Assembly: GCA_035944135.1 (NCBI GenBank)
Contig: DASZBM010000010.1
Coordinates: 620,001-684,000 of the forward strand
Length of the DNA stretch: 64,000 bases
Reading direction: 5' to 3'
DNA from: Acidobacteriaceae bacterium
GTDB taxonomy: Bacteria; Acidobacteriota; Terriglobia; Terriglobales; Acidobacteriaceae
Part shown: piece after piece, positions 8,228 through 63,922 of the stretch
How positions within the stretch are numbered: the first letter of the stretch is position 1
Layout of the letters: each line of letters begins with the position of its first letter
Position numbers and translations under genes: made by a program
Notes under the pieces: generated by a model
Seen by the model: only the letters and a program-made list of their open reading frames with translations
Databases searched by the model: none
What the model was told of the DNA's origin: nothing

Positions 8228-9966
8228 GCGGTCGATGCCTCTGCCTGATCGCGAACATAGGCGAGCATCGTACCGCATTCTTTTCCTACAGAACGTCCAT
8301 GCGGGCGGATTGTGTACGCGCCAACCGTTGCCGGCACGATGAATGTTTCAGCATAGTGCACAACGAACGGATCGAACGCTTCCGTAGGGCTCTCGACGAT
8401 CGCTTCCTCGCCTTCCACCAGATTCAACACGTGCACGGTGCCACGCGTGCTGTGGGGAACGGTCCCAGTGAACCAATGGCGCCGTGTCTCAATGAATTCC
8501 AATTCATGCAAACCGGTTCGTTCCTCGCGCCATCCGTCGCCGGAGGCGACCGGAACAAATTGGTTGACCAGGTTCGTCCGCGCCCACTCGGTTGTCCGAT
8601 CCCATTGGATGTTGCGGGCGCCATGCTCAAGGTGGATGGGTCTGGGATACCCGTCTAGGCCCACGCGTCCCCAGTCCCACAACTTGAACGTGAAGATATA
8701 GGGTGTCGCGCTGATTTCCAGCACCATAGATCCCTTCCCGCTGCAATGCACCGTGCCGGCGGGAATCAGAAAATGATCGTGTTTGCGGGCAGGGAATTGA
8801 TTGACGTACTTCTCCGCTGGAAAATCGAAATCGCCTTGCTGCGCCCGATCAAGATCAGAGAGCATGCGCGATGGATCGATGCCATTCTTCAGGCCCAGGT
8901 AAACCGTCGCGCCCTCCTCGGCGTCGAGCAGGTAATAGCTCTCGTCCTGGGTGTACACCATGCCGAAGTGCTCGCGGATATATCCCGTAAGTGGGTGGAC
9001 CTGCAGCGAAAGATTGCCGCCGCCCATCGTATCCAGAAAGTCGAAGCGAATAGGGAACTCCGCGCCGAAGCGTTTATAGATGGCTTCACCCAAGAGTTCC
9101 TTCGGGTGCTGCAATACAAGATCGAGCGCAGGGACTTCGACCCGCTGATCACCGAAGCCAAGCAGAAGGCTGTTCTCTTCGGGTACGCAATCGAAACACC
9201 ACGCATGATTGGGCGCGCCGTCGTCGGGAAGGTCGCACACCCGTTCCATCCAATGTCCGCCCCATGGTCCCGGGTCGAAGAACGGAACAACCCGGAACGG
9301 ACGCGTGACAGCAGTGCTCATGCCTTTACGGAACGCGTCGCCGGAGATCATCTTCGGTGCATTGGGGGTATTGGTATCGAGGAGAAAGTCTAATTCTGGT
9401 AGCAACTCGGCCTTGGTGCGGTCTGCGGCACGCCAATCCAGGAAGAAGGCGCGCTTGTACTTCAGAGAGGGACGCTCACTAAAGTTATCCAATCCAAAGT
9501 TAGCAATCAGGTTTTTTCGTTGCCGCCTCTGCAACTCCCACCTTGCCATGTCCGCGTAGATCAGAACGGAAGGTTCCGGGGCGACCAAAGTCGCTCCAGT
9601 GCCGATAACAATTACCTTGCCCGAGCTGGATGCATCACTCTTCAACCTCGTTAGCGCGTCATGATCGAAGAAGTCCGCAAGAGTCGTCTCGCTCATCTGA
9701 CCAAACACCGGATCTTCGGTGAGCTGTTTCATGAAGCGTTCTTCGGTGACCTCTTTCGGCAGAAGAGCGTCGTCGGCGAGGACAACTCGCCAGCCATGCA
9801 TATGCTGCGAGATCGCTTGCACAATCTCCTGAACGAACACACCGGGGTAGCACTCAATGCAGATGCTGGAATCCTGGCGCTCTCGGAGGGAGCTTGCAAT
9901 CGCTTCCCATCCGACCAGGCACGCACTTTCGGGTGCAACATTGATAAAAGGAGCTTTGTCGTACAT
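8224..9966 (-). CDS. Class I mannose-6-phosphate isomerase with a degenerate kinase-like N-terminal domain
   Basis: The chosen ATG at 9966 begins 1 base after the stop of the ROK kinase; longer reading would run into that gene. The product is 580 residues, against about 300-400 for ordinary type I isomerases. Residues about 240-580 hold the cupin isomerase: the metal-site motif LQVHP (Gln322, His324), then HDHFLIPAGTVH (His407). It should interconvert mannose-6-phosphate and fructose-6-phosphate. Residues 1-200 form a separate domain. Its ending (IGTGATLV, then YADMARWELQRRQR) looks like the lid end of uridine-kinase-like proteins, but the P-loop position reads ECYPGVFVQE and lacks GKS/T. I therefore expect no phosphate transfer there; a regulatory or sugar-phosphate sensing role is a guess. 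Confidence 0.8.
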   Translation of the reverse strand: MYDKAPFINVAPESACLVGWEAIASSLRERQDSSICIECYPGVFVQEIVQAISQHMHGWRVVLADDALLPKEVTEERFMKQLTEDPVFGQMSETTLADFFDHDALTRLKSDASSSGKVIVIGTGATLVAPEPSVLIYADMARWELQRRQRKNLIANFGLDNFSERPSLKYKRAFFLDWRAADRTKAELLPELDFLLDTNTPNAPKMISGDAFRKGMSTAVTRPFRVVPFFDPGPWGGHWMERVCDLPDDGAPNHAWCFDCVPEENSLLLGFGDQRVEVPALDLVLQHPKELLGEAIYKRFGAEFPIRFDFLDTMGGGNLSLQVHPLTGYIREHFGMVYTQDESYYLLDAEEGATVYLGLKNGIDPSRMLSDLDRAQQGDFDFPAEKYVNQFPARKHDHFLIPAGTVHCSGKGSMVLEISATPYIFTFKLWDWGRVGLDGYPRPIHLEHGARNIQWDRTTEWARTNLVNQFVPVASGDGWREERTGLHELEFIETRRHWFTGTVPHSTRGTVHVLNLVEGEEAIVESPTEAFDPFVVHYAETFIVPATVGAYTIRPHGRSVGKECGTMLAYVRDQAEASTA

Positions 9967-9967
9967 C

Positions 9968-10897
9968 CTAGTCGGTTCCTTCGGGAAACAGAGTAGGAAC
10001 GCCGAGCGCTGCAGCCTGATCGCCGAGTTCGGCGACCGCAATGCGCACCTTTCCCCATGGCGTCCAGGTGTTCTGCTCCACGTACTGTTGCAGGGGCGGA
10101 ACAATCTGATTCGCTGCCCGCATCGCTCCGCCGCCCAGGACGATGAGTTCTGGATCGAAAGAATGGACGGCCGCGACGGCCATCATGCCCCAAATGGTCA
10201 GACAGTGTTCACGCACTTCAATCGCGATCTTGTCCCCCGCTGCACTGCAATCGAAAAGAGTCTTGAAGTTCAGCGGCTTATCCACCAGACAGCTCTCCGC
10301 GAATCCCGGCCATTCGCGGCAGATCTCTGGCAACGACCACCCAGAGGCCTCGGCCTCTGCGCAACCTTGTCCGCCGCAAGTGCAGCGACGGCCGTGGGCA
10401 CGCACCGGCACATGCCCACCTAGCACGCCCGCCTGTCCGTGAACGCCCACGAGGGGCGCTCCCTGCATTGCAGCGACTCCGCCGATCCCTGTTCCAAGAG
10501 TGAACATCACCACGTCCGAAACGCCTCGTGCCGCTCCTGCATGCATCTCGCCGCGAAGCGCAAGCCTCGCGTCGTTCTCCAGCCGCACAGGCACGCCGAG
10601 ACTCTGGAGGCCCCAACCTTCGAAGTCGAAAGCAACCGTGTCCTCGTATTTGCCATTAGTCGAGAGCACCCGGTTCCGTCTGGAATCAACCAGACCACAC
10701 ATCCCAACCCCAAGCCCGGACACTGGCTCTTTAGCCGAAAGTGCCAGTCTCTGGAGGCAGTTGGTTATTTCAGGCAAAACCGCTCTGAAGCTGGTGCTGT
10801 CTGCGAACGACAGGTGTTCAGTGGCTAAAACGGTCTGCTCACTGATCAGGCTGCAAGCTGCGTGGGAGCCGCCAAGATCAAGGCCAAGAAGTGTCAT
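9968..10897 (-). CDS. ROK-family sugar kinase
   Basis: The ATG at 10897 gives 309 residues starting MTLLGLDLGGSH, the ATP-binding phosphate-1 motif. The frame extends upstream to 10990, but those residues look like promoter DNA. Asp109 in LENDARLA is the catalytic base, LGTGIGG (about 134-140) is the phosphate-2 loop, and His162 with CTCGGQGC (Cys172, Cys174, Cys179) forms the ROK zinc site. The usual ExGH stretch that contacts the sugar reads GVLGGH here, so substrate preference may differ from glucokinase or NagK. It is the first gene of a tight operon with mannose-6-phosphate isomerase, which favours mannose or fructose as substrate. It diverges from TonB receptor 1. Confidence 0.85.
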   Translation of the reverse strand: MTLLGLDLGGSHAACSLISEQTVLATEHLSFADSTSFRAVLPEITNCLQRLALSAKEPVSGLGVGMCGLVDSRRNRVLSTNGKYEDTVAFDFEGWGLQSLGVPVRLENDARLALRGEMHAGAARGVSDVVMFTLGTGIGGVAAMQGAPLVGVHGQAGVLGGHVPVRAHGRRCTCGGQGCAEAEASGWSLPEICREWPGFAESCLVDKPLNFKTLFDCSAAGDKIAIEVREHCLTIWGMMAVAAVHSFDPELIVLGGGAMRAANQIVPPLQQYVEQNTWTPWGKVRIAVAELGDQAAALGVPTLFPEGTD

Positions 10898-52600: not shown

Positions 52601-52937
52601 CTATGCAGGCGGCTCCTGCTCCTACTCTGCTGGGCCGTGCCGAGCTTTCCTTAACATCTCCGCATTTTCTGTTCCCGCTTACGGAACCTTCGGCAACGTC
52701 AGTAAAGGTGAGTTCACGGGACCACGTTATGCAAATTGGGACGCCGGTCTTTATCGCGTCTTCCCACTTCACGAGCGAGCAACATTGCAGTTCCGCGCTG
52801 AATACTTCAACCTTCTCAACCACACCAACCTGGCCGACCCGGTCAATGATGTGAATGCATCGGGATTTGGCAACGTCATCAGCAACGGCAGCTACACGCC
52901 GCGCATCGCTCAGTTCTCCCTCAAGCTGGGCTTCTGA
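49608..52937 (+). CDS. Oar-like TonB-dependent receptor 4
   Basis: A TTG start at 49608 is supported by AAGGAG (49595-49600) 7 bases upstream and by the signal peptide that begins there (LSRRHIAGTFAVLGLATSAAMAQ, given only by its ends here). The 1109-residue protein has a carboxypeptidase-regulatory-like domain (about 35-115, GTVVDPSGALISGASVV), a plug with ELPLNGRNAAQLTTLVAGA and MLDGGNNVDEYTDVNGPFPFPDA, and a barrel ending in AQFSLKLGF. Linked GH105 and uronate-carrier genes suggest pectic or other uronate-containing oligosaccharides as ligand. It probably shares an operon with GH105, whose start is 25 bases after this stop. Confidence 0.88.
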   Translation: MPQPRFVLSRALSRRHIAGTFAVLGLATSAAMAQGFGSIQGTVVDPSGALISGASVVATQMSTGESLTVPSNSSGRFIFPQLLPMEYSVRVTSPGFSTYTQKGITLQADQSLVLNIQLRLGSESSNVTVDADADQVNTTNGTLSQVINRAQVEELPLNGRNAAQLTTLVAGAVTGPNDGADQGVTKTFPVVASTSINGSQIFETNYMLDGGNNVDEYTDVNGPFPFPDALQEFSIQTSNYNAEYGQNAGGVVNIVVKSGQEKYHGLLFEYVRNGIFNAASPFGYVQSSQYGLPVKTVDPLKRNQFGGTFSGPLAIPHLFNARKTFFMFGYQKSLIRDETPNNSFVPTDAERSGDFSALLTVNPDNPIGSAEKIKNPTTGAKYSGNQVNPSTFDPAAVALEQDLPHATGDGQVFYQVPLKENFGEYIARVDHTFSDKDQMFAHFFSDSFLYGGYLNPQNLLTYTDQSTIVYRSSLLSETHIFTAHLMNNITVNYMQELAQRYAPDNAPDLADYGVNIWQPALKAIERLKVKGYFSFGANPYAQFQRNSYNLSDDMHWVHGNHDFAFGGRIELSKIDNGGPYQEPGLFTFSKLAGDGAASFLLGAVSTFVQGAGTYTSLRNTFPGLYAQDSWKVSRRLSLNYGLRYEPYLPWAEADHRVEMFDPQAYAAGITSSVYVNAPPGLLFPGDKGVPEQGYRAIYTDFEPRLGFALDLFGNGKTSLRGGAGVFYDTRTQAINASNASGVTPFGVSLQLTNPQGPFSNPYKGITNPFPTATQLPYDGAFPVPVQVYTYNPVGSLPPPTTYQWNLSVEQSLTQNLFARLAYVGSRTTHLTTFLEENPGQANASGTDGPRRYSQYATITNLNDGANGSYNSLQATLQQRLSHGLTFMANYTWSKALDDGPYDYGDSLSYVYPIYYPNFRSLDRGRSNFDRRHVFSGSYVWKLPRLNSQAAALRAVVNGWETTGIVQIQSGDPLTVISSADSSDTAIGSDRAQYNGTAPYAGGSCSYSAGPCRAFLNISAFSVPAYGTFGNVSKGEFTGPRYANWDAGLYRVFPLHERATLQFRAEYFNLLNHTNLADPVNDVNASGFGNVISNGSYTPRIAQFSLKLGF

Positions 52938-52962
52938 CAGGCCCGTTGATGTGTCGAGGAAT

Positions 52963-54183
52963 ATGGTCAACATCAAGCGATACCGCCGTTCCGCAGCAAC
53001 GCTCGCCCTGCTGCTTGCGGCTTTCTACGGAGCCATCCGGTCTGCGGGGGCGCAGAACGGGTCGGTGACCGGCGCGGAGAGATCGCTTCCCAGCGATCTC
53101 TCCGTCGCCGTCGTACAACAGACGATCAAGAACCATCCAACGCCAGCCTCGCTGGGACCGTGGGGCTACACGCGTGGCCTCACCCTCTATGCCATCGAGA
53201 AGGTGTATCAGAGAACGCGTGATCCGCAGTATCTCCATTACATCCAGGCTTGGGCAGATGCTCATGTCAACGCGCAGGGAGAGATCGATCACCCGATCGA
53301 TGCTCTCGACGACATCCAGCCCGGTATGTTGATGCTCTCGCTGTATCGTGACACTCACGAGCCACGCTACAAGCTGGCGGCCGAGAGACTTCGCAAACGA
53401 TTCGACTCCTACCCGCGCACTCGCGATGGTGGGCTCTGGCACGGCGCGGTCACCGATCACACCGATCAGCTATGGCTCGATGGCACCTATATGTCGCTGC
53501 CATTCCTGGTTCAATATGGGGAGCTCTTCGGAGGCCGCAACGCCGCGTGCGACGAAGCCGCTAAGCAGTTGTTGATTTACGCCAGTCATCTCAATGATCC
53601 CAGGACAGGATTGCTCTTCCATGCCTACGACGAATCCGGCACTCAGCCGTGGGCTCAGCCCGGCACGCATCATTCGTCCTTCTTCTGGGGCCGCTCCATG
53701 GGCTGGTACGGTATGGCGCTCATTGAGGTGCTCGACGTAATGCCGAGAAACAATCCTTACCGGCCGAAGCTGATTGCGCTGGTCAACCAATTTGTGGAGG
53801 CGTTTGACCGCTTCCAGGATCCGCAGACCGGTCTCTGGTACAACGTGGTCGACAAGCGCGATCAACCGGGCAACTGGCTCGAATCCTCCGCTTCGTCGAT
53901 GTACATCTACGTCATCTCCAGGGCGGTTCAGCGAGGATATGTTCCGGGCACGTACGAAGCGGTAGCGTGCAAGGGGTATCGCGGCATGCTGACGCAGTTA
54001 ATCGCTCACGCCGACCACGACGTCAGCGTAACGAATATCTGTGCCGGCACTGTCGTAGGAGACCTCTCATACTATCTGGCCCGTCCGCGGAACACCGACG
54101 ACCTTCATGGTATCGGTGCATTTCTCTTAATGAACGAACAGATGCGGAATGCATCGTGCGTCCGGCGCATGCGGGCGCACTGA
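52963..54183 (+). CDS. Secreted GH105 unsaturated rhamnogalacturonyl (uronyl) hydrolase
   Basis: The ATG at 52963 has GAGGA just upstream and begins a signal peptide; the longer frame from 52855 would overlap the receptor gene. The 406-residue protein has the (alpha/alpha)6 barrel with PWGYTRGLTLYAIEKVY, the active-site motif QLWLDGTYMSLPF (Asp173, the YteR-type catalytic Asp) and SFFWGRSMGWYGMALIEVLD. These enzymes hydrate and release the 4,5-unsaturated uronic acid left by polysaccharide lyases. No lyase is seen in this locus, so the lyase product must come from elsewhere or from other organisms. Confidence 0.88.
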   Translation: MVNIKRYRRSAATLALLLAAFYGAIRSAGAQNGSVTGAERSLPSDLSVAVVQQTIKNHPTPASLGPWGYTRGLTLYAIEKVYQRTRDPQYLHYIQAWADAHVNAQGEIDHPIDALDDIQPGMLMLSLYRDTHEPRYKLAAERLRKRFDSYPRTRDGGLWHGAVTDHTDQLWLDGTYMSLPFLVQYGELFGGRNAACDEAAKQLLIYASHLNDPRTGLLFHAYDESGTQPWAQPGTHHSSFFWGRSMGWYGMALIEVLDVMPRNNPYRPKLIALVNQFVEAFDRFQDPQTGLWYNVVDKRDQPGNWLESSASSMYIYVISRAVQRGYVPGTYEAVACKGYRGMLTQLIAHADHDVSVTNICAGTVVGDLSYYLARPRNTDDLHGIGAFLLMNEQMRNASCVRRMRAH

Positions 54184-54216
54184 CCGTATCGCACACAATA
54201 AGTATCGAGGGGCCGT

Positions 54217-55482
54217 ATGTCGAGGAAACAGATTGCACTGTTGTCGGGCATCGTCCTGCTATGTCTTGCGAAGACAGGGAACGCACAGGTTCCGAAGGCC
54301 GATCGTAATCACGAAGCAGACATTCGCTCCGACATGGTCAAGTTCAATCCTCACTACCGTGAGTTCGTCGTGCCGCGGCGAAACGAGCTCAACGCACTGA
54401 CCGCGCAGATCGAATCGCGCGAGGCTGCCGGAGAGAAGGTCACGTGCTCGCACCAAATCGCCATCGAGACTCGATGGCTGCTGGGCTACACGGCAGACTT
54501 CCCACGCATCGACCAGCGCCTCAGCGACCTGAAGGAAAGCTTGGCCCATCCGGAGAGGGAATCGAGAGCGGAGCAGGAAGATCCTCATGACGGCAGTTGG
54601 GGCGGCTGCTACACGGAGTGGTTCGAGCGCCTCGACGCATCCTATGACGTTCTCCAGATGGAAAAGGCCCGAGGCATTGCTCCGAAGTACCGCTTCAGTC
54701 TTCTCGACCGCGTCAATTCGCCTGAAAAGCTCCGTGCCTACTTCGCGTCCATCACCACCTCCGACGTCGCGCGCACCGGCGTCGATCACCGCAAGGAGCT
54801 CAACGCAGCCTTCGTTGATCTCATCCGTCTCATCGTCGCAGGCGATCCTGCAGAATACCCTTGGGACCCGCGATTAAAGCAGGAACTGCTGAACCTCACG
54901 TTCAATCAATACCGCAATCAGCAGACAGGGTGGTGGGGTGAGAGCTACATCCACGACAGCCGGCGCGAGTACGTCGACGATCTCAGCATCACCTTTCACA
55001 TCGTCGTCGCTCTGGACGACGATGTGCCACTGAAGCGCAAAGTGGCGAGAACTCTGTTCGCTCTTCAGGACATGAAGTACCCCGCAGGCTGGAGCGAAAA
55101 TCAGAGCAATCATGACAACATGGATGTCATCGTGCTCATGCGGGCGACCTGGAACGAGATGACCCCTGAACAGCGCGAGCGCGGAGCCGAAATCATCAAC
55201 CGCATGCTGCATTGGTGTCTCACCGAATCGCTGCAGCCGGACGGATCATTCAGGCCCGGCCCCGGCGGCGACGATTCCATCGAAGAAGGCGAGCACTTCG
55301 GTGTCGCCTTCCTCAGCCGCATCGGCTACTTCGACAAATCGAAACGCTTCTGGACCAGCCAGGACTTCCCGGAGGCCGAGACCAACCGCCAGCACATCAT
55401 CCAGTTCATCAAGGCTCATCAGAACACTGGCGCCGCCGGCGGCGCTTATTACTCCAGCGCTCTGCACGAAATCACGCAATAG
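54217..55482 (+). CDS. Secreted alpha-toroid-like protein of unknown function
   Basis: The 421-residue protein has a signal peptide (1-23, ending GNAQ) and an all-helical look. Motifs such as NQQTGWWGES and LQPDGSFRPG resemble the QxxDGSW-type repeats of alpha/alpha-toroid proteins (terpenoid-cyclase-like and some polysaccharide lyases). Conserved-looking acidic and His residues occur in HDGSWGGCYTEWFERLDASYD and NQSNHDNMD, but a catalytic set cannot be assigned. It starts 33 bases after GH105 and precedes a uronate-type carrier, so it may be the missing lyase or a pectin-active helper; that is inference from context only. Confidence 0.6.
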   Translation: MSRKQIALLSGIVLLCLAKTGNAQVPKADRNHEADIRSDMVKFNPHYREFVVPRRNELNALTAQIESREAAGEKVTCSHQIAIETRWLLGYTADFPRIDQRLSDLKESLAHPERESRAEQEDPHDGSWGGCYTEWFERLDASYDVLQMEKARGIAPKYRFSLLDRVNSPEKLRAYFASITTSDVARTGVDHRKELNAAFVDLIRLIVAGDPAEYPWDPRLKQELLNLTFNQYRNQQTGWWGESYIHDSRREYVDDLSITFHIVVALDDDVPLKRKVARTLFALQDMKYPAGWSENQSNHDNMDVIVLMRATWNEMTPEQRERGAEIINRMLHWCLTESLQPDGSFRPGPGGDDSIEEGEHFGVAFLSRIGYFDKSKRFWTSQDFPEAETNRQHIIQFIKAHQNTGAAGGAYYSSALHEITQ

Positions 55483-55517
55483 TTCATCAACTAATCTTCC
55501 AGGCGCACAAGACCACA

Positions 55518-56867
55518 ATGCCACAGTCCGCAGCCACAGCAGGTGAACTCGAGGACTTCGGTCTGCACAAGCGGCCGTCCTCCCGTTCACATTCCCTTCG
55601 CTGGTGGATCTGTGCGCTTCTCTTTGCCTCAACAGTCATCAACTATCTCGACCGTCAATCTCTGGCGCTGCTCGCTCCCAACCTCAAGACCATCTTTCAT
55701 TGGGACAACACTGACTACGCCGATCTCGTGATCGGCTTTCGCATCGCCTACACGCTCGGCCAACTCTTCTGCGGACGATTCCTGGATCGCGTCGGAACTC
55801 GCAAAGGCACATCCATCACCGTCGCATTTTATTCGGCAGCTTCGCTCCTGACGCCTCTCGCCAACGGCTTTGGCGCATTCCTCGGCTTTCGATCCCTGCT
55901 CGGACTCGGGGAGTCTGCCAACTGGCCAGCCGCTACAAAGGCCGTCTCCGAGTGGTTCCCCGCTCAAGAACGCGCTCTTGCCACCGCATTCTTTGACAGT
56001 GGCTCCTCGCTCGGGGGCGCCATCGCTCCCTTTCTGATCTTCTCGATCTACGATCACTGGGGATGGAGACCTGCATTCGTCGTGCCCGGCTTGCTGGGCG
56101 TCGTTTGGCTGTTTCTCTGGCGCCGTTTCTACTACAGCCCAGAGCAGCACCCGCACATTTCACCTGAAGAACTCTCTCTGCTCGAAAACGAGAGGCGGAC
56201 CAGCGGAACGCACGACTCCAGCGAGCGAATCCCACTCAGGGTTCTTCTGCGCCTCAGGCAGACCTGGGGCACCGTTGCGGCGCGCGCTCTCACCGATCCT
56301 GTCTGGTTTTTCATTACCGACTGGTTTCCCATTTACCTGGTCTCGAAAGGGTTCACGCTCAGCAACAGCCTCCTCGCAGTCTGGGTTCCGTTTCTCGCCG
56401 CTGACGCCGGAGCCTATGTCAGCGGAATCCTTTCCGGATGGCTCATTCGCCGCGGATGGCCTGTGTTGCGGGCACGCAAGGTAATCGTCCTGGTTGGCGG
56501 CCTCGGAACGCTCAGCCTGATCTTCACCATCTTTACTCACAATCTGCTGGTGATCACTCTGCTCTTCGCCATCGCGACGTTTACCTACCAGGGCTTCTCA
56601 GTCGTAGCCAACGTCCTGCCCTCCGACCTCTATCAACCCGGAGGAGTGGCCAGCGTCAGCGGCCTCTCAGGCGCCGCCGCCGGCCTCGGCACTATTGTCG
56701 GATTTAAGGCTATCGGCTACTTCACCGATTCCAGAACTGCCGTCGGCACGCACGCGTTTGACCCGATCATGATCGTTTGCGGATTGATCCCGTTCATTGG
56801 AGCGATGGTGGTAATAGTGCTGATCCGCAGTCAACGGACGGCTTCCTCCGCGCTCAAATCTGTCTAA
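55518..56867 (+). CDS. MFS hexuronate-type transporter (ExuT/ACS family)
   Basis: The ATG at 55518 gives 449 residues, the usual size; the frame is open upstream to 55212 but overlaps the preceding gene. About twelve membrane segments are visible. The first carries VINYLDRQSLALLAPNLK and the loop after TM2 has GRFLDRVGTRKG, both hallmarks of the anion:cation symporter branch that holds ExuT, GudP and related carriers. LGLGESANWPAATKAVSEWFPAQERALATAFFDSG also fits, shown here only by its start GLGESANWPAATKAV. It should import a hexuronate or a uronate-derived acid released by GH105. It ends the operon, followed by a 10-bp stem hairpin. Confidence 0.85.
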   Translation: MPQSAATAGELEDFGLHKRPSSRSHSLRWWICALLFASTVINYLDRQSLALLAPNLKTIFHWDNTDYADLVIGFRIAYTLGQLFCGRFLDRVGTRKGTSITVAFYSAASLLTPLANGFGAFLGFRSLLGLGESANWPAATKAVSEWFPAQERALATAFFDSGSSLGGAIAPFLIFSIYDHWGWRPAFVVPGLLGVVWLFLWRRFYYSPEQHPHISPEELSLLENERRTSGTHDSSERIPLRVLLRLRQTWGTVAARALTDPVWFFITDWFPIYLVSKGFTLSNSLLAVWVPFLAADAGAYVSGILSGWLIRRGWPVLRARKVIVLVGGLGTLSLIFTIFTHNLLVITLLFAIATFTYQGFSVVANVLPSDLYQPGGVASVSGLSGAAAGLGTIVGFKAIGYFTDSRTAVGTHAFDPIMIVCGLIPFIGAMVVIVLIRSQRTASSALKSV

Positions 56868-56999: not shown

Positions 57000-57040
57000 T
57001 GGTCGGGACGACTAAATTCGAACTAGCGACCTCACCCACC
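57000..57040 (-). repeat. Distal att-like repeat: copy of the tRNA-Pro 3' end
   Basis: These 41 bases match 63846-63886 at 40 positions (the only change is A for G at base 16). They cover the CCA, acceptor 3' strand, T-arm and variable region of tRNA-Pro, in the same orientation. The D-arm, anticodon arm and 5' acceptor strand are absent. This is the expected structure of an att site at the far end of an element integrated into a tRNA 3' end. Confidence 0.88.
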
Positions 57041-57706: not shown

Positions 57707-58600
57707 TCAGCGCTGGCGCGCGAGTATGAGCTGTAGTTCCTCATTCAGTGCACGGCTGATTTCCTGAGCGCCGGCGGGCGTCAGGTGCGCGTCGTCGATG
57801 TAGTTATCCGGATTTTTTCGGAACTCGTCATATTTGTTGCTGTTGAAATCGATAAGAGCCTCTCCCGGGCGGATAGGGTTTACTCGCAACCTGTAACTCT
57901 GGAGAAAACCGCGTCGGGCCTCGAGGATGTTCGCACGGACGGGCGGTACCACAAAAACTATCTTGATTTCATGCGAGCGAAGCTCGCTCAGCAAAGCGTC
58001 ATAATCACGTATCCCTTCGGGATCCACCGGCCACACAGGAGGGAGCCAGTCCGCAAGCATTTTTTTAGCTTCAATCACCCTGTCGCCGTTCGGAAAATAC
58101 TCAGGCCCTTCACGAGAAAGCAGATCAAATTCCTTGCGAAATTCCTCACGCAGAATCGTCACCGAGCCTAGCGCCTCCGCCTTGCTTGGCGTGCCCATGC
58201 CTTTCTCCTTGATGTCGTGATCGATAGTCATTTCAGGGGCGAAGACACATAATGCAATGAGAAAATGCCCCGCAGGGAGAGCCTGGTCTATAAGTAGCTT
58301 TTCTTCGGTTGCGTTGCCGCCCGCGATTGATTCGTTATAGATTCGAAAATTTTGAATCGCACTTACGTCCCAATTTGCCGACATTGAAGAACCTATCAGC
58401 AATCCATTAAAGTTCTCGGGCACATACCGCTCGTTAAGCAGGTATTTTGCGGTGCGTTCGTTGTTATACACCCTCAACTGCCTACCCTGAGGGTTGCGAA
58501 ACACACCAAATATATCGATGGCGAAGCTACTCGCACCGACGACCAGAATCAACGTAACGGTAAAAAACAATGTCAGGTAGAACCAGTGGCGGTAGGTCAT
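57707..58600 (-). CDS. Membrane-anchored SGNH-like protein, partner of the MBOAT acyltransferase
   Basis: The 297-residue protein has one N-terminal membrane helix (about 7-30) and an exported domain. GLLIGSSMSANWD (Gly70-Ser71-Ser72) matches the GxS block of SGNH/DltD/AlgJ-like proteins, and DDAHLTPAGAQE (Asp269, His272) supplies the C-terminal DxxH pair. SGNH proteins beside AlgI-type MBOATs move or remove acyl groups on extracellular polymers, as AlgX/AlgJ do for alginate. It starts 9 bases after the MBOAT stop, so they are co-translated. Family matching is by motif only, and an acyl-transfer role is inferred from the partner. Confidence 0.7.
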   Translation of the reverse strand: MTYRHWFYLTLFFTVTLILVVGASSFAIDIFGVFRNPQGRQLRVYNNERTAKYLLNERYVPENFNGLLIGSSMSANWDVSAIQNFRIYNESIAGGNATEEKLLIDQALPAGHFLIALCVFAPEMTIDHDIKEKGMGTPSKAEALGSVTILREEFRKEFDLLSREGPEYFPNGDRVIEAKKMLADWLPPVWPVDPEGIRDYDALLSELRSHEIKIVFVVPPVRANILEARRGFLQSYRLRVNPIRPGEALIDFNSNKYDEFRKNPDNYIDDAHLTPAGAQEISRALNEELQLILARQR

Positions 58601-58609
58601 AGGGAAATC

Positions 58610-60031
58610 CTAGAACCGAAAATAGATGAAGCTTTGTGAGATATGGGAATTCATAAAAATGAGAGCTACAAGAAATATTCCGGCGACAGAAAGGGCATCA
58701 CGGTAGCCGGGCTTGAGTTCGCGGGCGATTTGATCAGATCCGCGACCGTAGAACGCCACGATTACACCTAGCAGCAGCGGGACGCCGAAGGTTGTCATAC
58801 TGAAGCTCCTTCGGGTCATCGCAAGGTGCTCCAATGCGAGGGGTTGATGATAGTTGAACAGCGCGTTAATGAAGTTGGCCGCATCCGGGATGGTATTTGA
58901 TCGGAAGAAGATGAACGCGATATCGACAAAAACAAGAGTTAAGCCCCAGGAAAGAGCCCAGTGGAGTTTTGGCAATTTCTTCTTGCGCCAGTATTGATTG
59001 ATTGCGAGCGCCACCCCATGTAGGGCGCCAAATACTATGAATGTCCAGTTCGGACCGTGCCACAAGCCCGCTATTGTCATGGCAAGTATAGTTGCCACCG
59101 CAGCAGTGCGGAGAGTGATCCGACTGAATGATTTGAGGATCGGTGTATACATGTAGGAGGTGATGAAGTTCGATAGTGTGATGTGCCAGCGCTCCCAGAA
59201 TTCGATGATCGACTTCGATCGCAGTGGCGCGTCGAAGTTTCGCGGGATTTCGATCCCGAGCATCATTGCCGAACCCCTAGCCATGTCGGTGTATCCGCTA
59301 AAGTCGAAGTAAATCTGTAAGGTGAAGGCGAGGCTGTAGGTCCATGCTTCAATCCCGGACAATCTCCCGGTTACATTGAAGCCGGAGTCGGCGATAGCTC
59401 CAAAGCAAAAAGCGAAGACTGTCTTCTTGAATGCTCCCATTGCGAAGAGGTAAAGGCCGCGCGAGAGTAGCTCGTAATAGTCGCCGGGCGGGTGACCGAA
59501 GTTCCCAAATTGACCCACCATTCGCTTTGCCTTCGCGATTGGACCGGAGATCACGTAGGGAAAGAACGAGACGAAGGTGGCATGATCGAGCAGATTAAGC
59601 GCAGGGACCAATTCGTCAGAGCAATCGACAAGGTACATGATTTGCGCGAGCGTGAAGAAGCTGATTCCAAGCGGGAATGCAAGATTAGGAAGGACGTGAT
59701 GCGATCCGAAGTAAGGGATAACTCCGAGAAAGAAATTGAAATACTTGAAGGAACAGAGAAATGCCACGTTTAGGATGATTCCAAGTCGTAGCCAATACCC
59801 GCGAACGTGCTGCGGTGCCCTTCTCATGAAATTCGCCACTGCCCAGTTCGCCAGGATCGACGCTGCAAGGAAGATCAGATTGCTAGGCTTCCCCCAAGCG
59901 TAGAACAGCAAGGATGCGGCTAATATACATAGCTGCGCAGCGAGAGGGCCGAAGGCTCTGCGAAGGAAGACGCATAGCAACACCGTGGCGGGCAGGAAGC
60001 TCGCGATATAGACAAATGAATTGAAGAGCAC
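58610..60031 (-). CDS. MBOAT O-acyltransferase (AlgI/DltB-like)
   Basis: The 473-residue protein has about ten to twelve membrane segments and the AlgI hallmarks YFDFSGYTDMARGSAMMLGI, FWERWHITLSNFI (His283) and GLWHGPNWTFIVFGALHG (His325, the invariant MBOAT His). Members carry acyl groups across or at the inner membrane onto extracellular polysaccharide (AlgI) or onto lipoteichoic acid through a carrier protein (DltB). An ACP gene upstream in the same cluster makes the DltB-like, carrier-protein-fed mode attractive. The length fits AlgI-type proteins. There is a 236-base gap to the ACP stop, mostly filled by a small coupled ORF. Confidence 0.9.
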   Translation of the reverse strand: MLFNSFVYIASFLPATVLLCVFLRRAFGPLAAQLCILAASLLFYAWGKPSNLIFLAASILANWAVANFMRRAPQHVRGYWLRLGIILNVAFLCSFKYFNFFLGVIPYFGSHHVLPNLAFPLGISFFTLAQIMYLVDCSDELVPALNLLDHATFVSFFPYVISGPIAKAKRMVGQFGNFGHPPGDYYELLSRGLYLFAMGAFKKTVFAFCFGAIADSGFNVTGRLSGIEAWTYSLAFTLQIYFDFSGYTDMARGSAMMLGIEIPRNFDAPLRSKSIIEFWERWHITLSNFITSYMYTPILKSFSRITLRTAAVATILAMTIAGLWHGPNWTFIVFGALHGVALAINQYWRKKKLPKLHWALSWGLTLVFVDIAFIFFRSNTIPDAANFINALFNYHQPLALEHLAMTRRSFSMTTFGVPLLLGVIVAFYGRGSDQIARELKPGYRDALSVAGIFLVALIFMNSHISQSFIYFRF

Positions 60032-60105
60032 TTATCGAACCTTTCCGCAAACCATTGGGCTAACAACGCAATCTGGCTTTCGGACCTCCGCGCGCGGAGT
60101 GATTG

Positions 60106-60270
60106 TCAAGATAAGCAAGGATCGCGATAGCCCAGATAGGCCGGGATGATCTCCACTTCCAGATACCTACGCATGCCATTCTTAGACGACCGGCGAGGCA
60201 GTCTCAATGTCACTTCGGGTACTGCTGAAGGTAATGCAGACAGTGGCACAAGGGTAACGTGCAGCGTCAT
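60106..60270 (-). CDS. Small ORF coupled to the ACP gene
   Basis: A 54-residue frame starts at an ATG that overlaps the ACP stop as ATGA (60267-60270) and fills most of the gap to the MBOAT gene. The product (MTLHVTLVPLSALP at its start, IIPAYLGYRDPCLS at its end) has no recognised domain and no clear membrane helix. The coupling is the only support. It may be a decayed gene or a chance frame. Confidence 0.3.
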   Translation of the reverse strand: MTLHVTLVPLSALPSAVPEVTLRLPRRSSKNGMRRYLEVEIIPAYLGYRDPCLS

Positions 60271-60509
60271 TTTGCCGAGAGCTTTGTTTTGATAAGGTCG
60301 ATCATGTCGCCCACATTCTTCAGTTCCTGTAGCTCGCCCAAAGCAAATTTTATACCGTAACGCCGCTCGATCGCCATCACAAGGTTGATATGCGATAGCG
60401 AATCCCAATCCTCGACGTTGCTCGCGTTCGACTCACGTGTCAGTACGAGATTGGGCTGATCGAGGATGTCACGAAAAATCGATTGCAGTTCTTCAAGAAT
60501 GCTATCCAC
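60267..60509 (-). CDS. Acyl carrier protein
   Basis: A GTG start at 60509 has GGAG about 7 bases upstream and overlaps the end of the FkbH-like gene by 8 bases. The 80-residue product has the size and four-helix pattern of an ACP and the phosphopantetheine motif DWDSLSH with Ser37. It should carry a thioester-bound acyl group. Its coupling to an FkbH-like protein makes a glyceryl or related hydroxyacyl group from central metabolism the most likely cargo. The longer frame that begins at 60650 lies inside the FkbH-like gene and is not believed. Confidence 0.88.
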   Translation of the reverse strand: MDSILEELQSIFRDILDQPNLVLTRESNASNVEDWDSLSHINLVMAIERRYGIKFALGELQELKNVGDMIDLIKTKLSAK

Positions 60510-62331
60510 GTACGGTCTCCAGAACTTTGATGTGTCGGTTGCGCGGGGTGTAGTCAGAAATGTCGAGGCTCCAAATGGAGGCTTTGGTTTCGGGGTCGAC
60601 GGAGACCGGACGAAATCCCAGCTTCTCATAGTGGTCCGCGACCATGCCATTTTTCTTTGTCGGAAGATAATACCCTTGAATCACGCGAACGCCCGCTTCG
60701 AAAGCATTTTGCACGATCGCATCAAGCATAGCGAGTTCCATATCACGCTTCAGGACGCGGCAGCTCATCAGCCAAAGATCGAGATGAAGCAGGTGGTACT
60801 CCCGCCGGCCGAGGATCACCGAGACCAGGCCATTGTCGCCAAAGCGATCGCTTAACTTGCCATAAATACCGATGTATTCGCCGTTGCGGGAAATGCCTTC
60901 CATCTCGGCTACGGTATATCGACGGGTTGTCAGGTTGAACTGATTTGCCTTATTCGTGAGTTGAACAATGCGATCGAGGTAGAGCGAGTTGAAACGCTCG
61001 ATCTCGGCAGTCATCTCGAGGGAGTCGAGATATTCGCCGTAGTTGGCAAACTTTGATTCCATCTGGCTGCGGGCGGCGTTGGCCTGATATAGAGCGGCGC
61101 GTGAGAGGTCCTCCTGTGACATCGAAACCGGTTCGAAGTAGCGGCCTTCGTCGAGGAGAGTCGCAAACCGGGTAACGTCGCTGCCAACATCGGGCACGGC
61201 AATCTCCGGGATTTGGGCTTCGACGATGGCGCGTTCGGCCGGATTATCATCCACGAAAACGAAGCTATCCACGCCGAGATTCAATTCCTTCGCGATCGCG
61301 AGGATGTTTTCGGATTTCGGTTCCCAATTTGCCTTGAAGCTGGAGAAGTGCTCGAGCTTCAGCACCGAATCGGGATGCTCGAACCCTTGCTTAGCGATCT
61401 TCTCGTCATTCTTTGAGCAGACTGCGAGCAGAATACCTCGCCGCTGCAGCGATAAGCAGTACTCCTGAAAAGCGGTGTAGGCTTCTGCCACTGGAGTTTC
61501 GCGGCCGATTTGTAAGTTGTCTATGCCATCGTCGCCAATCACACCGCCCCACAAGGTGTTGTCAAGGTCGAGTACGAGCACTTTCCGGCTTTTTCCGTAG
61601 ATTCCTCGAACCATCGATGCAATGGAACGCGCCATAGCCAGACTGGCTTCGCTGGTAACAAGAATTTTGTAGCTGAAGTAACGGGTCCAATCAAACCATT
61701 GATTCAGCCCAATTCTTGATGAGAGCCTATGGATATCGTGCAGAAGCAAACGCGGATCAGCTTCTGCAGCCCGCGCAAATGCGGCGTTCATCTCTAGAAA
61801 AAACCGGGTCGCACCCCCGTTCGAAGAAGAATCCATGTTCCCGAAGGTTGCATAGGGCGGTAGCTCGAAGTTGTTCTGGATGATCTGAGCGGAGACGTTC
61901 TGCTCGATCGATTGCCAAATCTGCTGATAGCGCCAAAGTTCAGCATCGACGCAGGCCTGTCGGTCGGCTGCGGTAGAGTTCGCAGGGGGTACCGTTCGAA
62001 CATTCAGGTAAGAAGTGTGAAGGTAAACGATGTCAGGCGCAAATGAGATTAGGTCCGCTGGATCCACCACTGTGTCTTCGTAAAACCTGCCGTACTCGGA
62101 CTGGTGGAACTCGGGCTTGAATCCAGAAGCCAAGAGTAGAATTTCCAGAAGGTCAACAACCTCGTTGGTTGTAGAGCCGCCGAGTACGGCAATCCGAACT
62201 GGCTGGAGGTTCGCCGCTGCACCAAATTGGCGGCGCAGGCTCTTACGCTTGAGCAGAAGATCGACGGCGCTGAGTTGATCAATACCCATGAACAGACGAT
62301 AGACCGCCTCTTTCCGAAAATACGATACCAC
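60502..62331 (-). CDS. FkbH-like HAD-IIIC protein (acyl-ACP loading)
   Basis: The 609-residue protein has three parts. Residues about 45-225 form an SGNH-like domain (VLGGSTTNE, with HDIH at 198-201). Residues about 245-400 are the HAD domain with VLDLDNTLWGG (Asp255, Asp257, Thr259), VCSKNDE and FVDDNPAERA. Residues about 440-600 are a GNAT-like domain. Known FkbH-type proteins take 1,3-bisphosphoglycerate, remove a phosphate and load the glyceryl group onto an ACP, and an ACP gene overlaps this stop. GTG at 62331 or ATG at 62289 could be the start; neither has a clear ribosome-binding site. Confidence 0.85.
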   Translation of the reverse strand: MVSYFRKEAVYRLFMGIDQLSAVDLLLKRKSLRRQFGAAANLQPVRIAVLGGSTTNEVVDLLEILLLASGFKPEFHQSEYGRFYEDTVVDPADLISFAPDIVYLHTSYLNVRTVPPANSTAADRQACVDAELWRYQQIWQSIEQNVSAQIIQNNFELPPYATFGNMDSSSNGGATRFFLEMNAAFARAAEADPRLLLHDIHRLSSRIGLNQWFDWTRYFSYKILVTSEASLAMARSIASMVRGIYGKSRKVLVLDLDNTLWGGVIGDDGIDNLQIGRETPVAEAYTAFQEYCLSLQRRGILLAVCSKNDEKIAKQGFEHPDSVLKLEHFSSFKANWEPKSENILAIAKELNLGVDSFVFVDDNPAERAIVEAQIPEIAVPDVGSDVTRFATLLDEGRYFEPVSMSQEDLSRAALYQANAARSQMESKFANYGEYLDSLEMTAEIERFNSLYLDRIVQLTNKANQFNLTTRRYTVAEMEGISRNGEYIGIYGKLSDRFGDNGLVSVILGRREYHLLHLDLWLMSCRVLKRDMELAMLDAIVQNAFEAGVRVIQGYYLPTKKNGMVADHYEKLGFRPVSVDPETKASIWSLDISDYTPRNRHIKVLETVRG

Positions 62332-62789
62332 CTATTGGCAAGGCCATGCTTCTCCACACGTCTTGCGCTGAGGACGGATCGTTTCAGGTCGGCAGAATCG
62401 ACAGGCGCTGTATCTTGGGACCAGTTTACAGAATCCCTCCCGCTCTAAGCCTGAGACGCTGACGTGGAGGTGGTGGGTACCCACCCATGCATTTGTCCGA
62501 TCATGCCCCGCCGTGTTTCTCTTAGCATCTCCAGTAAACAACTAAAGTTCGACCGTAGTATGGTTACCTACCGATGTCTTTCGCGCGCCTGGGCACCGAC
62601 TTTCCTTGCTGTCTCGCGGACATTCTCTTTCACCGGCAAACCTTGCCCACGCCGCGTTTTCGGTTTGCTTGCCCTCGGTGATGTCCTGGCTCACTCCAAG
62701 CGCGAAGGAGAGCCGCTAAGTTGTGAGGGAATTTGGTGGCGCTGAACCCTGTCGAACGAGTTCATGTATGCATATAAGAGGAGATTCTG
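62332..62789. other. Gap upstream of the FkbH-like gene, with a 14-bp palindrome
   Basis: No convincing gene is seen. GGTGGGTACCCACC (62472-62485) is a perfect 14-bp palindrome about 140 bases upstream of the FkbH-like start and is a candidate operator. CATATAAG near 62771 could be the -10 of the small plus-strand ORF that follows. Confidence 0.4.
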
Positions 62790-62945
62790 ATGGCTGAACG
62801 AATTGCGAGTTGCATGAACACCCTCGCGTTCAACTTGGCTCTCAATCTCTTAACCCGAGCGGGAATGGCGAGGTTTCGACTTGGAAAGCTCCGCAAAGAA
62901 CAATCCGGACAGCTACCGCCGCGGTGTTCAGCACCGCGAGGATGA
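62790..62945 (+). CDS. Candidate 51-residue protein
   Basis: An ATG at 62790 has a strong AGAGGAG (62778-62784) at good spacing. The frame runs 51 codons to TGA, giving a short hydrophobic-then-basic product (MAERIASCMNTLAFNLALNL, then a basic tail). It is the only plus-strand candidate in the islet and is convergent with the VOC gene (8 bases between the stops). No family is recognised. The ribosome-binding site is the main support. Confidence 0.3.
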   Translation: MAERIASCMNTLAFNLALNLLTRAGMARFRLGKLRKEQSGQLPPRCSAPRG

Positions 62946-62953
62946 GAGCGAGG

Positions 62954-63403
62954 TTAGGCGAGGCCAGGTGGGCAGAGGTCACCCTCGCTGCTGCGTTCGA
63001 CAAGTTCGATCGGCAGTAGATCATCGCCAATCAGCCAGCAGATCCTGCGGCCGGCGAATGCCAATCCTGGCTTTGGTTCCGAAATCAGGCGCATTCCGGC
63101 CTCCTCAAGCTGGGAAATAGCTTCTTCGAGTGGCCCTGCGATGAAGCAAAGATGGTTGAGGCCGCTTCCGCGCTTGACCGCATTGGCGAGCTTGCTCTCG
63201 GGACCGTCGGGCGCGACCAATTCAAGGTAGGAGCAGTCTCCGCGCAGCTTCAAGAACTGAACCAAGGCTGTCTGCAGCGGGTCGTGGATGATAGGGGTCA
63301 CGAGTTCGTAGCCGTAGCGGCTGACATAGCTTGCTGCGATGGGACCGATGCTGGCCGCGGCATAGCCGATGTGGTGAAGTTGTAGCGCGGTACCTGAGCT
63401 CAT
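62954..63403 (-). CDS. VOC-superfamily metalloprotein (epimerase/glyoxalase-like)
   Basis: The ATG at 63403 gives 149 residues; the frame is open to 63475 without better support. Two paired beta-alpha-beta-beta-beta units carry a full set of metal ligands: His11 (LHHIGYA), Glu61 (YLELVAP), His84 (LNHLCFIA) and Glu133 (PIELVE). The pattern is closest to methylmalonyl-CoA epimerase-type VOC proteins. In this cluster it could epimerise or rearrange the acyl unit before or after loading on the ACP. It lies 622 bases upstream of the FkbH-like gene on the same strand, so an operon is possible but unproven. Confidence 0.82.
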   Translation of the reverse strand: MSSGTALQLHHIGYAAASIGPIAASYVSRYGYELVTPIIHDPLQTALVQFLKLRGDCSYLELVAPDGPESKLANAVKRGSGLNHLCFIAGPLEEAISQLEEAGMRLISEPKPGLAFAGRRICWLIGDDLLPIELVERSSEGDLCPPGLA

Positions 63404-63845: not shown

Positions 63846-63922
63846 TGGTCGGGACGACTAGATTCGAACTAGCGACCTCACCCACCCCAAGGGTGCGCTC
63901 TACCAGGCTGAGCCACGTCCCG
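63846..63922 (-). tRNA. tRNA-Pro (anticodon GGG)
   Basis: The minus strand folds as a complete tRNA with an encoded CCA. The acceptor arms are CGGGACG and CGTCCCG, the D-arm holds GGCTCAGCCTGGTAGAGC, and the anticodon stem CACCC/GGGTG encloses the loop TTGGGGT, which places GGG at positions 34-36. The T-arm is CTAGTTCGAATCTAG. It should read CCC and CCT proline codons. Its 3' end is repeated at 57000-57040, so it is the probable integration site of the islet. Confidence 0.95.

Follow-up and report, generated by a model that had tools for sequence, protein, structure and literature searches.

Five neighboring genes on the minus strand of a 64,000-nucleotide stretch of DNA from an Acidobacteriaceae bacterium (assembly GCA_035944135.1, contig DASZBM010000010.1, positions 620,001 to 684,000; the window) probably encode a carrier-protein-fed, Dlt-like transmembrane acylation system. 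They run from position 63403 to 57707 in the order VOC, FkbH, acyl carrier protein (ACP), MBOAT and SGNH. The carrier would be charged by an FkbH enzyme instead of by DltA, and we put the probability of this reading at about 0.6. That the five genes form a real set, as the first-pass annotation had it, was borne out: the protein families were matched, the set recurs in other genomes, and the FkbH (TIGR01686) and MBOAT (PF03062) models each have one match in the 4.43-Mb genome, side by side. The coordinates are collected in Table 1.

The comparisons below are based on 90 loci derived from 94 regions that were chosen by FkbH similarity (L002, L035-L047, L055-L134). Four duplicates or near-duplicates were removed (L039, L043, L055 and L059), while some near relatives, such as L120 and L124, stay in the set. 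The set includes L047, with about 38% identity; the distant loci L048-L054 were kept apart from it and L135-L138 and L181-L183 were left uncounted. Counts of ACP, MBOAT, VOC, MaoC and SDR genes refer to the DNA within 6 kb of FkbH.

The FkbH-like protein clearly exceeded the TIGR01686 cut-off, and the Pfam FkbH_N model gave 18 bits, under its cut-off of 27. Its translation may start at ATG 62289 and not at GTG 62331, because the alignment of most relatives begins at about residue 15. Residues D255 and D257 of the HAD motif, in which such residues have catalytic roles, and C524 of the SCR motif (609-residue numbering) are invariant among 11 relatives. Across the locus set DxDxTxW was found in 89 of 90 FkbH loci, the remaining one being a fragment, and SCR in all 90. 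The ACP starts with GTG at 60509 and overlaps the FkbH stop codon; its serine motif, DS followed by L, M, V or I, was present in 76 of 82 ACPs. In polyketide and tetronate pathways FkbH-like proteins and stand-alone ACPs form glyceryl-ACP, according to PMC7489565. Judged by its family, the FkbH-like enzyme would charge the ACP with glyceroyl, for which 1,3-bisphosphoglycerate is the presumed source.

A profile built from relatives of the MBOAT protein matched DltB structures strongly (E 6e-45). Its C-terminus, FIYFRF, corresponds to the FxYxxF acyl-shuttle motif known from PatA and DltX, which supports the earlier assignment of MBOAT-type surface acylation machinery. Residues H283, H325, Y470 and F473 are invariant (n = 14). 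A C-terminal FxYxxF occurs in 48 of 56 MBOAT open reading frames (ORFs) and YxxF only in three; the five that have neither all end at or near the ends of their loci. In PatA and DltX the acyl group crosses the membrane via the FxYxxF tyrosine to an SGNH serine, as described in PMC12148441. By analogy, the acyl group would pass from the ACP through the membrane to the tyrosine of the MBOAT's own FIYFRF, and the SGNH protein would then transfer it to a hydroxyl of an extracytoplasmic polymer or lipid.

The SGNH-like protein had no Pfam match above cut-off. Its label is based on two motifs kept among relatives, a serine in GSS and, toward the C-terminus, DxxH (H272 invariant; G70, S72 and D269 nearly invariant in 11 of them), and on weak profile matches to DltD (6o93, E 0.011), PatB (8tlb, E 0.35) and AlgX (4knc, E 0.91). 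Of the 51 loci that have both ACP and MBOAT, 37 also encode an SGNH-type or DHHW ORF no more than 1.5 kb from the MBOAT. For the other 14 loci, such an ORF is found farther away in L074, L100 and L105, and an unclassified ORF of about 300-400 residues stands beside the MBOAT in L072, L077, L089, L093, L096 and L099. The MBOAT lies at or near the locus end in L071, L075, L109 and L115, and the last locus, L046, is a broken cluster. There (9132-10600) a C-terminal FkbH piece lies head to head with a shortened MBOAT frame, and ACP, MaoC and SDR remain. Clostridial clusters have a DHHW protein, seen in 13 loci and scanned in one member, whose gene mostly stands just upstream of FkbH.

Table 1. Features of the gene cluster and its boundaries in the window.
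Feature	Positions	Strand	Remarks
VOC protein (glyoxalase I / methylmalonyl-CoA epimerase superfamily), 149 aa	62954..63403	-	Glyoxalase_4 57.9 bits (cut-off 27)
FkbH-like protein, open frame of 609 aa	60502..62331	-	TIGR01686 292 bits (cut-off 147); proposed ACP loader
ACP, 80 aa, DSL serine Ser37	60267..60509	-	PF00550 (PP-binding) 32.1 bits (cut-off 20.8)
MBOAT, 473 aa	58610..60031	-	PF03062 81.5 bits (cut-off 27); proposed transmembrane acyl mover
FIYFRF codons (MBOAT C-terminus, Tyr470)	58613..58630	-	FxYxxF acyl-shuttle motif
SGNH-like protein, 297 aa, N-terminal membrane anchor (by eye)	57707..58600	-	S72, D269-x-x-H272
tRNA-Pro (GGG)	63846..63922	-	ARAGORN; 3' end is segment boundary
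Repeat of last 41 tRNA-Pro bases, 40/41 identical	57000..57040	-	distal boundary of probable island

Conservation of the FkbH, ACP and MBOAT genes as neighbors, which the first-pass annotation had proposed as a check, is supported by the locus set, where an ACP was found in 81 and an MBOAT in 53 of the 90 loci, along with the SGNH-type and DHHW partners described above. In a class-level search, FkbH matches were present in 80 of 250 genomes. The tight clade of the window protein (57-68% identity) comprises 10 same-family genomes besides that of the window; G194 has a C-terminal fragment only. Within the genus, 4 of 28 genomes, the window's included, have an FkbH of at least 58% identity. An MBOAT was detected in 14 of 14 tight-clade FkbH genomes versus 5 of 14 relatives that gave no FkbH match (p 0.0006, uncorrected); these comparison relatives were the first 14 genomes on the class-level list that had no match, and the association tests treat related genomes as independent. 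Genomes G239, G072 and G275 have no MBOAT near FkbH but at least one elsewhere. Among the best 80 of 581 confirmed FkbH matches, the named genomes represent 14 phyla, going by record titles and lineage labels; loci in which ACP and MBOAT both lie no farther than 6 kb from FkbH come from 12. Some phylum labels may be wrong because many of the records are metagenome-assembled genomes.

Gene order is also shared over large distances. The succession of ACP, tailoring genes, MBOAT and SGNH recurs in distant loci such as L061, L062, L063, L080, L083 and L091. Plasmid pSymB of Sinorhizobium meliloti carries the genes in the order VOC, MBOAT, a 409-residue protein, ACP and FkbH; the 409-residue protein matches the SGNH profile (E 7e-8) and the MBOAT ends in FLYQGF. 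On a Paracoccaceae plasmid the order is ACP, FkbH, MBOAT, a 358-residue protein and VOC, with FIYFNF at the end of the MBOAT and a weak VOC match (7e-6). These two independent arrangements speak for the carrier-fed reading.

A complete synthase in related neighborhoods had been named as a refuting finding; a ketosynthase query (FabF-like, E 1e-3, run with no positive control inside the loci and no FabH query) matched none of the 90 loci. A role of the loaded ACP as polyketide starter unit was disfavored on the same result. Four AMP-binding queries together matched 4 of the 90 loci, one of them weakly. Three Lachnospiraceae loci (L079, L081 and L082) have FkbH and ACP amid housekeeping genes (pfkA-, dnaX- and recR-like by eye), with no MBOAT nearby. 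On a Niveispirillum plasmid (L136, 6854-11334) FkbH and ACP are followed by a WcbI-type protein and by a protein annotated as SDR and matching MaoC; through these the carrier-bound acid might take another route.

The VOC protein is a real partner of the set, as had been supposed, since a 70%-identical VOC gene lies directly behind the ACP gene in L040 and L043. It exceeded the Glyoxalase_4 cut-off and gave 36 bits with the methylmalonyl-CoA epimerase model TIGR03081, under the cut-off of 115. Residues H11, E61, H84 and E133, which correspond to metal ligands of VOC enzymes, are invariant in seven relatives. The best solved matches are glyoxalase I-like; the window protein has the residue pattern H-E-H-E, and an aligned epimerase chain has Q at the position of E61. 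A stereochemistry-setting role is plausible: in the window locus VOC would act at C2 of glyceroyl-ACP, most likely by epimerizing it.

A VOC gene is present in 14 of the 90 loci. The 51 loci with ACP and MBOAT divide into 26 with MaoC and/or SDR only, 9 with VOC only, 1 with both and 15 with neither (Fisher p 0.0036 for MaoC/SDR against VOC, with related genomes treated as independent), so that MaoC/SDR and VOC mostly replace each other. In L057, the sole locus with both, VOC sits between MBOAT and SGNH. The three nearest genus relatives (FkbH 72, 61 and 58% identical) lack VOC; ACP-MaoC-SDR is found in two of them, and in the third a MaoC-like frame runs on the other strand. In a quick FkbH tree of 89 rows, labeled by MaoC or VOC and built with the fragment L046 excluded, 10 changes are required to explain the 13 rows with the VOC label, and well-supported branches force at least 9 of them. 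This fits repeated module exchange; losses or missed genes are also possible. A search of the gaps in the window locus (about 0.6-0.7 kb between VOC and FkbH, where no gene was recognised, and about 0.24 kb between ACP and MBOAT) gave no convincing match to a MaoC/SDR remnant, and no SDR stands beside the window VOC. The best remnant match (E 3e-6) was rejected because it lies at the ACP gene, where the query frame overlaps an ACP.

The same data bear on a different function of VOC, namely a glyoxalase-like isomerization or assistance in an elimination, by which it would replace MaoC and not set stereochemistry. We consider this possible, though we rather doubt it. It would agree with the glyoxalase I annotation of the closest solved matches, with the H-E-H-E pattern and the epimerase Q, and with the mostly alternative occurrence of VOC and MaoC/SDR. 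However, the products of glyoxalase I are 2-hydroxyacyl thioesters, and therefore its chemistry is also compatible with C2 epimerization. Furthermore, the window VOC has neither an SDR nor a convincing MaoC/SDR remnant near it, and L057 has VOC and MaoC/SDR together.

Bryostatin-type synthases load lactyl units through FkbH-DH-KR. By a similar route, MaoC and SDR of many sister loci would convert glyceroyl-ACP to lactoyl-ACP by dehydration and reduction: acting in trans, they would remove the 3-hydroxyl to give an enol-pyruvoyl group, the reduction of which would yield lactoyl. In several related loci the product is probably a modified acid, for example lactate, because MaoC and SDR (in many loci) or a methyltransferase (in six; one member of this family was scanned) accompany FkbH and ACP. 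A pathway tool entry for FkbH loading modules, given in PMC7901079, forms D-lactate-ACP from 1,3-bisphosphoglycerate and ACP. In L037 (11730-13121) a LarA-type gene of the lactate racemase family directly follows a tight-clade FkbH, and no ACP or MBOAT was found there.

A broader scheme, which we put forward only tentatively, would extend this to about a dozen phyla as a widespread kind of envelope modification supplied by glycolysis. VOC, MaoC with SDR, or methyltransferase would tune glyceroyl-ACP to L- or D-glyceroyl, lactoyl or O-methylglyceroyl, and the carrier-fed MBOAT with its built-in shuttle would, together with SGNH, esterify surface polymers. The glyceroylation system proposed in the first-pass annotation is partly supported, namely by co-occurrence, the lack of a ketosynthase match, the shuttle motif and the VOC partner, with glyceroyl as a candidate for the transferred group.

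Several observations weigh against carrier-fed acylation. Both the acyl group and its acceptor are inferred. Acetyl-CoA-using MBOATs also carry FxYxxF, as stated in PMC12148441, and the motif is therefore no proof of feeding by ACP. In 21 of the 90 loci ACP is present with no MBOAT, VOC, MaoC or SDR, and in 9 of the 90 no ACP was found. The SGNH assignment is weak, DltD, PatB and AlgX accounting for 3 of the 8 profile matches and unrelated or uncharacterised proteins for the rest. Finally, the MBOATs of more distant FkbH-ACP loci belong to a different type, and those in L048, L049 and L051 end without the motif. In the distant loci L052 and L054 the MBOAT ends with YxxF only.

An ordinary acetyl-CoA O-acetyltransferase of the AlgI/PatA type, encoded in one operon with an FkbH-ACP pair that makes another product, could explain some of these features. 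The MBOAT has FxYxxF built into it, like PatA, an acetyl-CoA-dependent enzyme; 37 of the 90 FkbH loci have no MBOAT within 6 kb, and the same FkbH clade pairs with two MBOAT sub-types, the long type being 32-36% identical to the window MBOAT. Against this stand the presence of MBOAT in all 14 genomes of the FkbH clade and in about a third of the 14 chosen relatives without it, the recurrence of FkbH-ACP-MBOAT across about twelve phyla, and the order of ACP, tailoring, MBOAT and SGNH genes shared by several distant loci. This makes an unrelated acetyltransferase unlikely. Still less probable is a reading in which the hydroxyacyl group ends up in the cytoplasm, on a nucleotide sugar, lipid or peptide, or goes to a synthase whose gene lies elsewhere. 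FkbH-ACP pairs do work in polyketide and tetronate pathways (PMC7489565), some clostridial pairs occur amid housekeeping genes, and on an alphaproteobacterial plasmid such a pair adjoins WcbI-type and SDR genes with no MBOAT in the stretch. On the other side, the 90 loci gave no ketosynthase and few AMP-binding matches, and the ketoacyl-synthase match of the window genome lies outside the segment, which contains none.

The gene cluster fills a segment between tRNA-Pro (GGG) and a copy of the tRNA 3' end in the same orientation. The repeats are separated by 6,805 bases, in which the only recognised genes are those of the cluster. The G+C fraction is 0.49-0.56 inside the segment versus 0.55-0.60 in the 9 kb profiled outside, and this 6.8-kb segment is probably a genomic island; no integrase was recognised. 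The tRNA was matched in 26 of 28 genus genomes, the window's included. Whereas the partial copy in the window lies about 7 kb from the full gene, two other members of the genus (G251 and G261) have partial 3' copies about 24 and 18 kb away, and in this genus tRNA-Pro(GGG) appears to be a hot spot for islands. The exact tRNA is present at 21 other genus loci, 20 of which resemble the window on the upstream side; on the downstream side there is one 84-bp match to the island and nothing else, and no match to the DNA beyond the distal repeat was found within up to 1.5 kb. The comparison demonstrates variable content at this site rather than an empty integration site. Beside the segment, on the plus strand (52855-56867), are genes for a GH88 family protein, a 421-residue protein with no Pfam match above cut-off and an MFS transporter.

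In the literature searched, mostly papers outside subscription journals, those on DltB-, AlgI- or SGNH-type acylation did not mention FkbH, and no title pointed to such a system; a prior description is possible. If the proposed function is correct, the cluster would connect glycolysis, through one of its intermediates, with the cell surface, and its genes would be candidates for adding glycerate or lactate esters to polysaccharides. An L-glycerate ester is present on gellan, for example (PMC9104527), and the glycerate is drawn as derived from glyceraldehyde-3-phosphate (PMC6796983). In the literature consulted, no gene was named for adding the L-glycerate of gellan. The broader scheme, if true, could explain glycerate esters such as this one. 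Cultured hosts exist, neither of them known as a pathogen (Edaphobacter lichenicola M8UP30, locus L059, and Sinorhizobium meliloti, pSymB locus L137), which makes the system testable.

The pairing of FkbH with a stand-alone ACP resembles that in polyketide and tetronate pathways to glyceryl-ACP and methoxymalonyl-ACP, in which the two genes are also adjacent and the ACP-bound three-carbon unit is tailored. Unlike in those pathways, no ketosynthase match was found nearby and the product would reach a membrane acyltransferase. In the aeruginosin pathway, glycerate loaded by FkbH feeds a peptide synthetase, and acylation is carried out by an MBOAT. With the O-acetyltransferases PatA-PatB and AlgI-AlgJ/AlgX the window proteins share an MBOAT with C-terminal FxYxxF and conserved His and a separate, here weakly assigned SGNH-type protein, but here a carrier protein and FkbH are linked to them.

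The closest likeness is to the Dlt system of teichoic acid D-alanylation (DltA, DltC, DltB, DltX and DltD). As in Dlt, a carrier protein adjoins a DltB-like MBOAT and an SGNH partner, the latter weakly assigned, an FxYxxF tyrosine would serve as shuttle, and transfer would take place across the membrane. In contrast to Dlt, the proposed loader is FkbH-like and not the adenylating DltA, the shuttle motif is fused to the MBOAT and not on DltX, the host is Gram-negative, and VOC or MaoC/SDR is added. A true Dlt operon was rejected, since no DltA-type adenylating enzyme is encoded in the window cluster and the MBOAT is below the DltB cut-off (TIGR04091, 375 bits), with 184 bits in the window and 161 bits in L042. 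If our proposal holds, Dlt would no longer be the only carrier-fed MBOAT-SGNH system, and this second one would have another loader and another acid. PMC12148441 states that MBOAT-SGNH pathways except Dlt have no carrier protein and evidently use acyl-CoA; the proposed system would run contrary to this view, and its combination of carrier feeding with a built-in shuttle would therefore be new.

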